64,000 bases of DNA, from the NCBI RefSeq assembly GCF_013340305.1, contig NZ_BLVP01000008.1, positions 62,001-126,000 on the forward strand. Reading direction: 5' to 3'. Below, piece after piece: positions 8,696-29,658 of this stretch. Position 1 is the first letter of the stretch, and each line of letters starts with the position of its first letter. Origin of the DNA: Desulfovibrio psychrotolerans (GTDB lineage Bacteria > Desulfobacterota > Desulfovibrionia > Desulfovibrionales > Desulfovibrionaceae). Position numbers and translations under genes: made by a program. The notes under the pieces are model-generated. The model was not told the origin of the DNA. It did not search any database and saw only the letters and a list, made by a program, of their open reading frames with translations.

Positions 8696-9009
8696 GGGCG
8701 GCTCCTCGGTTGCGGATGGTGAACGCGCAGAAGTATGGCACGAAGTGCGCGTTGCCGCAACGCATGGCAATGACCGTAAGCCGTCTGGCATGCTCCGTCT
8801 GGCATACGTCGTTTAGCATACTCTGTCGGCGCAATCTGTCGGTGAATTTGTCTGTGCAATCTGTCTGTGCAATCTGTCTGCGCAATTTGCCTGCGCAGTT
8901 AGTCTGCGCAATCTGTTGGCGCAATTTGTCAGGCGTCCACTGTCTGTGCAGGCTGTCGCCTTCAGGCAGTCGGCCAAAAGCTTTGGGCGGCAAGGTCCTA
9001 CACGCAACT
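8696..9009. other. Intergenic region with tandem array
   Basis: About 310 bp. It holds the upstream region of the aminopeptidase gene and a degenerate 13-bp tandem array (8831-8933). A plus-strand TGGCACG followed by GG-N10-GC spacing at 8736-8750 resembles half of a sigma-54 promoter, but its -12 element is poor. No coding sequence is seen. Confidence 0.5.
8831..8933. repeat. Degenerate 13-bp tandem repeat
   Basis: Eight units of about 13 bp with consensus gcaatctgtctgc begin at 8831, 8844, 8856, 8869, 8882, 8895, 8908 and 8921. The second unit is 12 bp. Units differ at one to four positions. There is no spacer of fixed length and diverse sequence, so this is not CRISPR. Confidence 0.85.
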
Positions 9010-9045
9010 AAAAAAGGCCGTATCGTAATCAGATACGGCCTTTTT
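9010..9045 (-). terminator. Strong terminator, bidirectional in form
   Basis: A perfect 14-bp stem (9011-9024 with 9032-9045) and 7-nt loop has runs of five or six A/T on both sides, so it could stop transcription from either direction. On the minus strand it ends the putative regulatory RNA. Confidence 0.85.
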
Positions 9046-9273
9046 GCGTGTGCAACCGGGAACGGGTGGTGCTGTGTGGGGTTTTTTCATAGCCAAGCGT
9101 GTATGGAGACTGGCTGAAAGTTCCCGGCCGACACGACGAAGGAGTATGGAGGAGTTCTCTGACACCTCTCGGTGTCGGGTCGCAGCAAGGTTGCCGTCTT
9201 GCTGTGACCAACGGACTGTCCCAAGGAGGTTCGGACATTCCGTCAGGTGCTACCTTTGTCCTGTCTGGTTGCG
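9010..9273 (-). ncRNA. Putative sigma-54-dependent regulatory RNA
   Basis: A candidate transcript of about 264 nt defined by a near-consensus sigma-54 promoter (9284-9300) and a strong terminator (9010-9045). It contains two further hairpins: CAGCAAG/CTTGCTG (9183-9189 with 9198-9204) and GACACC/GGTGTC closed by a GAGA tetraloop on the transcript strand (9161-9166 with 9171-9176). Between the hairpins the transcript carries unpaired-looking CU-rich stretches: CCTCCTT, CTCCTCC and CTCCTTC. These are complementary to Shine-Dalgarno sequences and are typical of RNAs that block ribosome binding sites. Three palindromes upstream look like sites for a LuxO-type activator. A 69-codon frame on this strand has no ribosome binding site and atypical codon use, so I treat the locus as noncoding. 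Everything here is inferred from sequence. Confidence 0.6.
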
Positions 9274-9283
9274 CTTGGGTATA

Positions 9284-9300
9284 TCCAAGAGTCGTGCCAA
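9284..9300 (-). promoter_or_regulatory. Sigma-54 (-24/-12) promoter
   Basis: On the minus strand the sequence reads TTGGCACGACTCTTGGA. It matches the 17-nt consensus YTGGCACGRNNNTTGCW at every position except the C of the -12 GC, which is G. The predicted start of transcription is near 9273. The mismatch falls in a conserved base, so activity needs testing. Confidence 0.6.
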
Positions 9301-9372
9301 AACAGTATGTCTACGCAACGTGCTGTTTATAAAGAGAAAAAATGTTGATCAAAAAAGTAGACAATACGGCGT

Positions 9373-9387
9373 GTTGCAAAAAGCAAC
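9373..9387. promoter_or_regulatory. Activator-type palindrome, site 1
   Basis: GTTGCAAAAAGCAAC is a perfect GTTGC-N5-GCAAC palindrome, centred about 107 bp upstream of the predicted RNA start. It differs by one base from the TTGCA-N3-TGCAA motif. Confidence 0.55.
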
Positions 9388-9441
9388 AGCATGATAACGA
9401 AAATCATTTGCGAGCCGCAGTATTGCTGGATTTCCCGGCTT

Positions 9442-9473
9442 GTTGCACAATGCAACGCATTGCATTGTGCAAC
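9442..9473. promoter_or_regulatory. Two adjacent LuxO-like palindromes, sites 2 and 3
   Basis: GTTGCACAATGCAAC (9442-9456) and ATTGCATTGTGCAAC (9459-9473) each contain a perfect TTGCA-N3-TGCAA palindrome. Their centres are 17 bp apart, and together they form a larger 14-bp inverted repeat. They lie about 176 and 193 bp upstream of the predicted RNA start, a normal enhancer distance. TTGCA-N3-TGCAA is the binding motif I recall for Vibrio LuxO. Confidence 0.65.
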
Positions 9474-9618
9474 GTTTTTTGGGCTGCTTATATAATAGGA
9501 TGGCAAGGAAGGTCTCTTGTCACGCAAAAAACATCAGAAGAGAGACGAAAACGGCAGGGAAGGCGGGAGACAGAAAGGGGGGAAACAGCGGGACGGGCTG
9601 CACCCGCAAAAGGCGGGG

Positions 9619-11001
9619 CTACGCTTCCAGTCCGTAGCGTTGCAGCTTGCGCCAAAGGGTGGCGCGGTCTATGCCCAAAATCCGCGCTGCCTGCCCCTTG
9701 TTGTCCTGCACGCTTGTGAGCACGGCAAGGATGTGGCGGCGCTCCACCTCCGCGAGCGGAAGCAGACCTTCATCGGTCTGGGCGGCATGGGGAGACATAA
9801 CGGGGGCGTTGTGAAATTCCTGCGGCAGATGGCGCAACTGAATGGTGGGGCCGTCGCACAATACCACGGCGCGCTCGATCAGGTTTTCCAGTTCGCGGAC
9901 GTTGCCGGGAAAGGGGTGTGCCATCAGTGCGCCCAGCACCTCGTCTTCCATGCCCGTGATGTCTTTTTTGAAGGACGTGGCAAATTTTTCCAGAAAATAG
10001 TGGCAGAAGAGGGGAATATCATCCACCCGCTCGCGCAGGGCGGGCAGATGCAGGGTAAAGACGTTAAGCCTGTAAAACAGGTCCTGCCGGAAGCGTCCCC
10101 GTTCCACCTCGCGTTCAATGTCACGGTGCGTGGCCGCCAGCAGCCTTACGTCCACAGGAATCTCCTCCGTGCCGCCCACGCGCACCACCGTGCGTTCCTG
10201 CAGCACGCGCAGCAACTGCACCTGCATTCCCAGCGGCATTTCGCCTATTTCATCCAGCAGCAGCGTGCCCTGATGGGTGGCCTCAAACACGCCCGCCTTG
10301 GTGCGCTGCGCTCCGGTATACGCCCCCTGTTCATGCCCGAACAGTTCGTTGGCCAGCAGCTCCGCGTTAAACGCCCCGGCGTTTACCGCCAGAAAACGCT
10401 TGCCGGACCGCAGGCTGAGCCGGTGCAGCATCTTGGCGACCATTTCCTTGCCGGTGCCTGTTTCGCCCTGTATGAGCACCGTGCAGTCCAGCGGAGCCAC
10501 GCGGGCAATCTCGCGCTTCAGCGCCTGCATCTTGGTGCTCTTTCCTATGAGCATGGGCATGGCCTGCTGCCCGCGCAGAACATGGCGCAGCTCCAGCAGT
10601 TCCTGTTGCAGCAGGCTCTTTTCCAGTGCCTTCTGGATGACAATGACAAGGTCCGCCGGATTCTCAGGCAAAGGCAGGTAATGAAAGGCCCCCATCTGCA
10701 TGGCGCGCACGGCGGCGTCCACGGTGGCGCTGCGCGAGACAAGCACCACCTCGGTTTCCGGCGTGTTGCTCTTTATGACTTTGAGCAGGGTCTGTTTCTG
10801 CGCATGGTGTTCTTCCAGCGCGGCGACCACAACAGAAAAGTCCATCTGCGAGAGCGTGGCGCGGGTTTCATCGTGGCTTTTCACATGCGTAACCTGCAGG
10901 CCGGCCTCCCGCAGCACGGCGGGCAGACCCGCAAGGGAATCCTTGTCCTTGTCCACCACGAGCACATCGCTCCGTGCGGCATTGTCCTTGTTGGGCTGCA
11001 T
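9619..11001 (-). CDS. Sigma-54-dependent activator with degenerate receiver
   Basis: A 460-aa NtrC/LuxO-class protein that remodels sigma-54 RNA polymerase. The N-terminal domain (about 12-125) has the receiver fold but lacks its chemistry: only D17 of the acidic pair remains (next residue Lys). The phosphoacceptor position in DFSVVVAAL is Val or Ala, and the conserved Lys of YLPKP is L111. The AAA+ domain has Walker A GETGTGKE (179-186), a GAYTGA variant of the GAFTGA sigma-54 loop (226-231), Walker B LLLDE (247-251) and FPGNVRELENL. The Fis-type helix-turn-helix is NKGQAARILGIDRATLWRKL (434-453). The ATG at 11001 is used; an upstream TTG is possible. Palindromic sites lie immediately downstream of its stop. 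Confidence 0.92.
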   Translation of the reverse strand: MQPNKDNAARSDVLVVDKDKDSLAGLPAVLREAGLQVTHVKSHDETRATLSQMDFSVVVAALEEHHAQKQTLLKVIKSNTPETEVVLVSRSATVDAAVRAMQMGAFHYLPLPENPADLVIVIQKALEKSLLQQELLELRHVLRGQQAMPMLIGKSTKMQALKREIARVAPLDCTVLIQGETGTGKEMVAKMLHRLSLRSGKRFLAVNAGAFNAELLANELFGHEQGAYTGAQRTKAGVFEATHQGTLLLDEIGEMPLGMQVQLLRVLQERTVVRVGGTEEIPVDVRLLAATHRDIEREVERGRFRQDLFYRLNVFTLHLPALRERVDDIPLFCHYFLEKFATSFKKDITGMEDEVLGALMAHPFPGNVRELENLIERAVVLCDGPTIQLRHLPQEFHNAPVMSPHAAQTDEGLLPLAEVERRHILAVLTSVQDNKGQAARILGIDRATLWRKLQRYGLEA

Positions 11002-11340
11002 GGGCAAAGACTACGGGCTGTTGCGGCTGCCTGTCAATGCGCTCTGCGGTTTGCCTGCTGTAATCGTTGCCCTGCGCGGCTCGCGGCACAGAACAGGCAA
11101 TTCTCCAGAACGAACGTCACTGTCCGTGGCGCTTTTTCCATGCTGCCAAAGGGTTGCGCCTTGCATTCTCCCGCCGGATTGAGCAAGGTTGCCGGACGAT
11201 TTGACACTGAGGAACAGATCACGCGGCACGTGCTGCGCGTGGAAATAACGCACCTGCGCCCCGGATGCGGCAAATCTGCCGGGCTTGGAGAGGTGGCGGC
11301 GACCACCGGATAAAGCAGGAACAGACGAAAGCGGTATGGC
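11002..11340. other. Divergent intergenic region
   Basis: About 340 bp between the divergent sigma-54 activator and moeA starts. It should contain promoters for both. No molybdenum-cofactor riboswitch or other conserved RNA structure is recognisable by eye, and the long frames crossing it are antisense shadows. Confidence 0.5.
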
Positions 11341-27541: not shown

Positions 27542-28662
27542 GAGCAACTCCTTATACGTTACGACACGGTTGGTACGCTACACCCCTTCAACCATGATCG
27601 TCTCATCTCTCTATCGTCCGAACGCCCATTTGCTTAACAGGCTGTTGAAAAAAGGTTACCTGCTGCACTGCCGCGAACTGTGTCCTCCCCAGGGGCAGTT
27701 TCGAAGATGGCAGGTCTGTATTTTTTTAATGCGTTGCATTGTCCAAATGCTGCATGACTGCAGAAATGGAATGGCAGGCCGCGTTACATGATCCGTGTCC
27801 TCTCTTACGCCGGAGCGGACTCCCCACGCGCATAAGCAAGTTGCGGGCCATACTCCCGCTATCTGCCGCACGGTCCTTCTGAAAGGGTCGGAAGGGGGCC
27901 GCAGGGCTCCATAGGATTCCATAGGAAGCAGGCGATACCGGGAGAGGGTGTCCGTTCTCCGGGGCCGCGTCTCGTACTGCCGCGGTATTGGGGGAAAGCA
28001 GCCGTCCTTAGCAGCGGTTTGGCAGCGGTTTGGCAGCTACGGGCCGGAGGACGCTGCATGATGGTTGCCTTGCAGGAGAACGACTCCTGCTTTCGATTTC
28101 TCACAATATGCATACCGGGTACCGGTTTGTTGCAAAATTATGTCTGATTTACTGGAAATAGTACTCTGTTTCCACAAAAATGGACAGTCCTTTCCTGAGG
28201 CCGCGTGACGTTTCAGCGTCTTGTGCGTGACATGACCATTGCCGCCGGAGGCACGGAATACGCGGTGCGGAGAGGTGCGCGGCCTAATTGCAGGGCACGG
28301 TGGAGCGCGGACGTTTTTGGACGAAGAGGTATGAGAGATACGTTGGTTTGCGCAGTATCTAGACAATATCTTGAAAGCGCGCTACTGCTTGAAAAAGCAC
28401 GGTGTTTCCGGTTCGGGGTGCGGGAGATGCTTTCTTCAGGGGGGTGGGCGTTTAGAGGTTGGAACCTTTGGCGTAGAAGCTGCATCCCGGCGCGAGCCGG
28501 TATGGAACATTGCCTGCATCGGGCGGGGTGTTTCCGGCGAAAAGGAGCAATATGGCGGAAGCTCGGGGCAGAGAGACCGTGCCGCGGGGAACATCTTGTT
28601 CCCGCCCGGGAGGTGAACCCGCTCCGGGGGCTTTCGTATCTACGCCATCTGCAAGGAGTTCC
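27542..28662. other. 1.1-kb noncoding region
   Basis: No frame here has a ribosome binding site and a recognisable family. Visible elements are a caggctgttgaaaaa string (about 27640) of a kind often seen at IS ends, an imperfect hairpin GCGAACTG/CAGTTTCG (about 27673-27705), a TTGCA half-site sequence gttgcattgtccaa near 27733, a duplicated agcggtttggc unit (28012-28040) that creates GG-N10-GC spacing, and an interrupted inverted repeat ggaaata/tgtttcc near 28154. It is locally more AT-rich than its surroundings. It may hold an IS scar or an unrecognised RNA. Confidence 0.45.
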
Positions 28663-29658
28663 ATGGCCAGTACGGCAGAAATGTCAGCCCCTTCGGGAGA
28701 AGGTGGCTTTTTCAGTGTTTCCCCGCTCATGATTTTTCCCTCCGTCATGGGGTCTTTCAGTGTCTACCTGCGCCAAGGCAGCGAATACGTCCTGTACACG
28801 GGTGCTGAAGAGGTATTTACCGAGCGGCACAAGCGGGTGCTCTACGAGAACGGCGTACGCGAGGTATTTGTCCGGCAGAAGCACAAGGAGTCGTATACCC
28901 GTTATGTGGAAGAGAATCTGGGGCACATCCTGCTGGATGATTCCATTCCTCTGCGCGAGCGGGCAGGACTGTTTTACAAGGTTTCCGCCGAGGCACTGGA
29001 GGATGTTTTTGAGTCCCGCCTTCCCGGCAAGGTCGGCGAGGAACAGTACGACCGCATCCACAGCTTTGTGAATCAGGCCGTGCGGTTTCTGTGCCTTGAA
29101 AACTCGCTCAAAGCCGTGGGCGAGTTCATTGCCCACGACTACAAGACCTATACGCACTGCGTGAACGTGTTCGTTTATACCACCACCCTGCTGCAGACCT
29201 ATGGACTTGACGAGGAAATGCTGGTGCGCTGCGGCATAGGGGCCATGCTGCATGATGTGGGCAAGACCCGCATTCCCCGGCTGATTCTGAACAAGCCGGG
29301 CAAGCTGGACCCGGACGAGCGGCGTATCATCAGCAAGCATCCCACTCTGGGGCTTGCCTCGTGCACACGCATGCCTCTTGCGCAGGAGGCCATGAACATC
29401 ATCCTTTTCCATCATGAAAAGATGAACGGCAGCGGGTATCCCGCCGGACTCATGGCGGAGGAGATTCCGCTGCCCGTGCGTGTGGTGACCATTGCCGATA
29501 TATACGATGCCCTGACCTCAGACCGTCCGTATGCAGATGCCCGGCGTCCCTTTGAGGTGCTGGAGCTTATGCGGGCCACCATGGCACAGGATCTGGACAT
29601 GGAAGTGTTCAAACGGTTCATCATGATGCTTTCCGGCGCAAGGCTGGTGGGTCTGTGA
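28663..29658 (+). CDS. HD-GYP domain protein, first of a tandem pair
   Basis: A 331-aa predicted cyclic-di-GMP phosphodiesterase. An N-terminal region (about 15-90: FFSVSPLMIF, SVYLRQGSEYVLYTGAEE) resembles the DUF3391-like module that precedes many HD-GYP domains. The catalytic domain has H165, the HD pair at 197-198 in GAMLHDVGK and HHEKMNGSGYP (250-260), the HHE and GYP signature. All metal ligands appear intact. Output would lower c-di-GMP and favour motility over attachment. Start at 28663 is chosen for AAGGAG; longer frames add low-complexity sequence. The next gene, 49 bp on, is a close paralogue. Confidence 0.93.
   Translation: MASTAEMSAPSGEGGFFSVSPLMIFPSVMGSFSVYLRQGSEYVLYTGAEEVFTERHKRVLYENGVREVFVRQKHKESYTRYVEENLGHILLDDSIPLRERAGLFYKVSAEALEDVFESRLPGKVGEEQYDRIHSFVNQAVRFLCLENSLKAVGEFIAHDYKTYTHCVNVFVYTTTLLQTYGLDEEMLVRCGIGAMLHDVGKTRIPRLILNKPGKLDPDERRIISKHPTLGLASCTRMPLAQEAMNIILFHHEKMNGSGYPAGLMAEEIPLPVRVVTIADIYDALTSDRPYADARRPFEVLELMRATMAQDLDMEVFKRFIMMLSGARLVGL

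Follow-up and report, generated by a model that had tools for sequence, protein, structure and literature searches.

A sigma-54-dependent small RNA gene is predicted at positions 9010-9473 of the window (the 64-kb stretch of DNA that was analysed as a whole), directly behind the gene of an NtrC-type sigma-54 activator on the same strand (9619-11007). In the order of transcription on the minus strand, three palindromes come first; behind them lie a sigma-54 promoter, the RNA itself (about 264 nt) and its terminator. This reading of the sequence was confirmed as an observation (Table 1). The RNA looks like a new family that extends across the genus and is noncoding as judged by comparison of its members. 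Together with the activator gene it is interpreted here, with moderate confidence, as a two-gene unit in which an orphan activator would drive a trans-acting RNA that masks ribosome-binding sites independently of Hfq. The locus provides a defined, genus-wide small RNA family in sulfate-reducing bacteria, for which the promoter, the activator, and the candidate sites and pairing segments are mapped.

Conservation was assessed in a genus sample of ten Halodesulfovibrio-type genomes (G000-G009), where G000 is the genome of the window and the named relatives L001-L003 are Halodesulfovibrio. The original prediction had proposed a sigma-54 promoter with a start near 9273, a perfect 14-bp-stem terminator, three activator palindromes upstream and a sigma-54 activator as the neighbouring gene. 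These held: the promoter, from which the start at 9273 is predicted, by a mismatch-free pattern match and by conservation in 10/10 genus genomes, the terminator (9010-9045) by its presence in 10/10, the palindromes as two exact copies and a third with one mismatch, and the activator by its receiver, AAA+ (GAYTGA) and Fis-type HTH domains.

Table 1. Features of the predicted small RNA gene and the adjoining activator gene, with positions in the window.
Feature	Positions	Strand	Remarks
NtrC-type sigma-54 activator: receiver without phospho-acceptor Asp, AAA+ with GAYTGA, Fis-type HTH	9619-11007	-	Pfam; exact start codon uncertain
Upstream palindrome 1, TTGCATTGTGCAA	9460-9472	.	Exact TTGCA-N3-TGCAA
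Upstream palindrome 2, TTGCACAATGCAA	9443-9455	.	Exact TTGCA-N3-TGCAA
Upstream palindrome 3, TTGCAAAAAGCAA	9374-9386	.	One mismatch
Predicted -24/-12 promoter TGGCACGACTCTTGGA, TGGCACG-N4-TTGGA	9284-9299	-	Present in 10/10 genus loci
Small RNA, predicted 264 nt	9010-9273	-	Start inferred 12 nt after the -12 element
Hairpin SL1, ACCUCCUU in loop at 9223-9230	9210-9244	-	ACCUCCU in 10/10
Hairpin SL2, 8-nt loop ACGGCAAC at 9190-9197	9178-9209	-	Stem differs between RNA types
Hairpin SL3, tetraloop, type a only	9161-9176	-	
CU-rich stretch CUCCUCCAUACUCCUU	9139-9154	-	Invariant in 4/4 type-a sequences
Long hairpin SL4, approximate limits	9046-9134	-	Fold
Intrinsic terminator, ~14-bp stem and T run	9010-9045	-	

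The putative promoter TGGCACGACTCTTGGA was the sole mismatch-free match in the 64-kb window to the pattern TGGCACG-N4-TTGSW, which admits C or G at -12; its -12 element has one mismatch to the consensus, retained in 10/10 genus loci. With one mismatch allowed, the pattern was found three times in the window where 2.26 matches were expected, so the promoter sequence alone is not strong evidence. The 3.79 Mb genome contains seven exact copies of TTGCA-N3-TGCAA, and two of them lie at the locus, 17 bp apart; the reversed control pattern gave no match in the same 3.79 Mb. The pattern GTTGC-N5-GCAAC was present three times in the window (0.19 expected), twice at the locus. Around the remaining five genomic TTGCA-N3-TGCAA places, the best promoter-like matches at a distance of up to 700 nt carried two to three mismatches. 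A plus-strand terminator-like site reported by the pattern scan at 9441-9474 corresponds to the two exact palindromes. Imperfect 13-bp tandem repeats (unit approximately TCTGTCTGCGCAA, 8.5 copies) were observed at 8822-8957 of the window, between the terminator and an M24 peptidase gene.

The activator is present in the nine other genus genomes at 67-89% identity. In all ten genus members the receiver has Ala or Gly at the position of the phospho-acceptor Asp and Leu at that of the conserved Lys, so that conventional control of the activator by phosphorylation is not expected. Among nine related activators outside the genus, six keep both residues, two (L100 and L102) keep the Lys and have Asn for Asp, and one (L082) has lost both. 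PMC3333781 describes DVU1063 as a sigma-54 regulator with an atypical receiver that possibly needs no phosphorylation. A second activator, 48-49% identical and with an intact receiver, was observed in sister genomes (L104-L108, in G003, G006, G005, G008 and G009, respectively); in G000 it gave no match at E 1e-100.

Activator, three palindromes (each with at most one mismatch), TGGCACG-N4-TTGGA, RNA and terminator were found together in 10/10 genus genomes, and the conservation of promoter and hairpins expected in relatives was thus borne out. The start-to-start spacing of the palindromes is 17 bp and then 68-70 bp, followed by 87-92 bp to the promoter, in all ten loci. The RNAs fall into two types: type a (G000, G003, G005 and G006) measures 263-265 nt with 93% mean column identity, and type b (the remaining six genomes) 210-214 nt with 95%. 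The stems differ between the types, and both ACCUCCU and the SL2 loop (A/U)CGGCAAC are retained in 10/10. Folding of the 264-nt stretch, terminator stem included, gave -105 kcal/mol, with a z-score of -6.8 relative to 200 shuffles; one type-b member gave a z-score of -6.3. Two hairpins in addition to the terminator had been described at first; the count was corrected to three before position 113 plus a long fourth.

Comparison between the types rests on alignments of SL1-SL2, since alignment of the whole RNA misaligned the two types. For SL2, the share of paired cells is 91.2%, the covariation score 0.589 vs 0.290 and the number of cells with changes on both sides 25; none of 500 shuffles reached any of these values. 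Changes on both sides affect 8 of the 12 SL2 pairs (44/500 shuffles as high), and further pair types showed no excess over shuffles (459/500 as high). Because most of the SL2 covariation reflects a single split between the types, few independent events support the hairpin. For type a on its own, 95.7% of cells keep the 29 pairs, of which four change on both sides, with modest pairing measures (11, 17, 21, 21 and 81 of 500 shuffles as high); within type b, RNAalifold gave no two-sided changes.

RNA models of type a (R1) and type b (R2) were scored with stricter filters against 348 genomes of the order, where R1 matched 4/4 type-a and R2 6/6 type-b genomes and neither had a convincing match outside the genus. 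Five weak R1 matches (E 0.03-0.075, in G097, G111, G189, G302 and G307) were not counted as homologues, and R1 gave weak hits on the opposite strand at its own four loci as well. Type b escapes R1, and R2 recovers a single type-a locus (E 0.011); distantly related RNAs would therefore go unnoticed with these models. The paired-palindrome pattern, which is stricter than the array and misses 5/10 genus members, was present in 5 of 288 family genomes, all five in the genus.

In the mechanism we favour, the orphan NtrC-type activator would bind the three palindromes and open the sigma-54 promoter beside its own gene, which would yield a structured noncoding RNA. Several segments of this RNA (of the ACCUCCU and CUCCUC types) copy the anti-Shine-Dalgarno end of 16S rRNA, ACCUCCU being the sequence of the 16S rRNA 3' end. 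By base-pairing over the Shine-Dalgarno region of several mRNAs, the RNA would block their translation without Hfq. With the phosphorylation site of the receiver lost, RNA output should follow the amount of activator, a ligand or a partner protein and not a phosphorelay. The architecture, its conservation, the lack of a common ORF, the fixed segments with changing stems and the loss of the receiver residues are computed features; activator binding, transcription and the pairing mechanism are inferred. The Hfq model TIGR02383 found nothing in G000, a genome that is 99.86% complete; a control search gave matches in 5/14 genomes, four of them over the cut-off. This result and the analogy with NfeR1, discussed below, favour Hfq-independent masking of ribosome-binding sites, and the locus offers a test of RNA silencing in a genome where the Hfq model found nothing.

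Candidate targets were sought among 42 genes of the window. The best was the mRNA of an HD-domain protein called at 28552 (-25.9 kcal/mol), a score equalled by 10/3000 random windows and by 3/34 AAGGAG-centred windows, one of which is the complement of the RNA itself. The frame can start at 28552, and the start conserved in three type-a relatives lies near 28663, 37 codons on. At this conserved start the duplex with the full-length RNA reaches -41.0, a value attained by 362/1000 random windows, and the candidate was rejected; the other type-a genomes gave -32.6 to -35.0 at the same start. The 21-nt complement of the invariant CU-rich stretch matched only itself with up to three mismatches. Complementarity to Shine-Dalgarno sequences comes cheap in any CU-rich sequence.

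That the searches made found no mRNA target would also fit a sponge or protein-binding RNA, in which the (A/U)CGGCAAC loop and the CU-rich segments bind a protein or another RNA instead of ribosome-binding sites. The constancy of the SL2 loop in both types, although the stem differs, points in the same direction. However, the anti-Shine-Dalgarno copies are equally constant and match a well-known pairing partner, and no candidate protein is known; we consider this role unlikely compared with the masking of ribosome-binding sites.

The relatives of the activator outside the genus were used to compare what lies behind the promoter. In a tree of 37 activators, the ten genus members form a clade with nine others (support 100/99). 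At six of the nine outside loci (L080, L082, L083, L087, L093 and L101), an ORF of 33-38 codons stands behind a sigma-54-like promoter, and these mini-proteins of about 35 aa carry an AQA motif (FAQA in five of the six). At L100 and L102, what follows the sigma-54-like promoter looks by eye like the beginning of a cytidylate-kinase-like protein, and no such promoter was found downstream of the activator at L081. A profile built from the other five led to the mini-protein locus of G030 (39.4 bits), which lies behind its activator and whose promoter and start were read by eye. This profile gave matches at E 0.01 or better in 46/348 genomes, many of them inside long frames, with short-frame matches in G045, G053 and G345. 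Five of the mini-proteins had no Pfam match above the cut-off and one weak TPR-like match. Exact palindrome-like sites occur at L080, L087 and L093 (L093 judged by eye), whereas those at L082, L083, L101 and L102 carry one to two mismatches; L100 has no palindrome within one mismatch. None of 20 activator-like loci in ten other family genomes had a matching promoter downstream of the gene.

Each output can be explained by a single change on the tree, for the mini-protein with weak support (79/87; 82% of bootstrap trees), and the deep branches give no order of outputs. A possible, still tentative scenario is that the activator clade kept the enhancer-promoter cassette and swapped its output, which would be a mini-protein of about 35 aa, a cytidylate-kinase-like enzyme or, in the genus, a noncoding RNA that imitates the 16S rRNA 3' end and represses many mRNAs without Hfq or activator phosphorylation. 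If true, the exchange would be a documented switch between protein and RNA effector under one regulator, and the locus lends itself to testing how a dedicated sigma-54 cassette can swap its product between mini-protein and RNA.

The mini-protein loci raise the question of whether the genus transcript is itself an mRNA for a short peptide, as at the related activators where the promoter precedes an ORF of about 35 aa. No ORF is common to RNA types a and b at the genus loci, however, and the mini-protein profile gave one weak match in the genus, inside a 183-aa frame of G009. The absence of a convincing ORF, claimed from the single sequence, is corroborated by this comparison. A 69-codon ORF of the window RNA is not retained: its ATG is absent in G003, and G005 and G006 have in common a different frame over about 45 codons, so it was rejected as a coding sequence. 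A GTG-initiated frame of 29 codons (33 in G007) is present in 6/6 type-b genomes, but no Shine-Dalgarno-like sequence precedes it, and its retention may be due to nothing more than the 95% DNA conservation. Even with the GTG frame and the 45-codon frame on its side, we regard a peptide-coding role as very improbable.

A further reading is a leader RNA, with the terminator governing read-through into the M24 peptidase gene, which lies downstream on the same strand in 7/10 genus loci. This role is highly unlikely, and two informative genomes led to its rejection as the main one: G005 and G006 keep the RNA with no peptidase in 882 and 757 nt of downstream sequence (the 308 nt of G003 are too short to judge). 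The terminator, in addition, is present in 10/10.

The locus had been likened to the Qrr RNAs of Vibrio. Qrr is an Rfam family of RNAs of about 100 nt; the RNA here measures 210-265 nt, and the window gave no Rfam match at gathering scores. The resemblance stands for the promoter class, the TTGCA-N3-TGCAA sites, the activator gene adjoining the RNA gene and the CU-rich segments, but not for LuxO, the phosphorelay receiver, Hfq or an Rfam match. The LuxO model NF041946 reached 289.5 bits, where its cut-off is 800, and was outscored by the AtoC, NtrC and ZraR models; among the 25 of 46 models listed, none attains its own cut-off, and the solved LuxO ranks behind NtrC-family regulators, ZraR and FleQ. 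The LuxO motif, given as TTGCA-N3-TGCAA in the original prediction, agrees with TTGCAWWWTGCAA as quoted in PMC10162802; the centre of the palindromes here is not always A/T as it is in that motif. A genuine quorum-sensing RNA of the Qrr kind, driven by a LuxO orthologue that receives its signal from a phosphorelay and working together with Hfq, has very little probability given these scores, the loss of Asp and Lys in 10/10 receivers and an Hfq model that found nothing, and membership in the Qrr/LuxO system was rejected. The locus is Qrr-like in wiring only.

For the pairing segments favoured here, the closest likeness is with the alphaproteobacterial alpha-r14 'cuckoo' RNAs, to which NfeR1 belongs, the nearest analogue whose mechanism has been tested. 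According to PMC10746234, NfeR1 of Sinorhizobium has three hairpins with a fixed anti-Shine-Dalgarno motif and variable stems, silences at ribosome-binding sites independently of Hfq, and is activated by LsrB and repressed by NtrC. As in that description, several hairpins of the RNA here show anti-Shine-Dalgarno motifs, and the stems vary, in this case between the two types, while the motifs are fixed. The exact 'cuckoo' sequence CCUCCUCCC, which those RNAs carry identically in three hairpin loops, is absent in 10/10 genus RNAs, where type b has CCUCCUCC in 6/6 and type a ACCUCCUU in 4/4. In place of the LsrB/NtrC control described for NfeR1, a neighbouring sigma-54 activator is predicted here, and the RNA has no Rfam match.

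In a search that covered few subscription papers, no paper combining Halodesulfovibrio and sRNA and no report of this RNA was found, and a single paper mentioned Dv_sRNA2. The statement in the original prediction that no equivalent is described in this group was wrong, as cases from Desulfovibrio vulgaris are reported in two papers. In Rajeev 2011 (PMC3333781), DVU0679 targets the small RNA Dv_sRNA2 directly downstream, with expression confirmed by tiling data, and similar arrangements are suggested in two relatives. In Kazakov 2015 (PMC4641369), the D. vulgaris sigma-54 regulome includes four ncRNAs, among them those downstream of DVU0653 and DVU0679. Compared with these descriptions, the locus has the same order as read from its sequence, with a sigma-54 regulator gene followed directly by a putative promoter and a noncoding RNA. 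A sigma-54 regulator with a downstream noncoding RNA is already known in the group, and the RNA described here looks, by sequence and conservation, like a new family of that kind.
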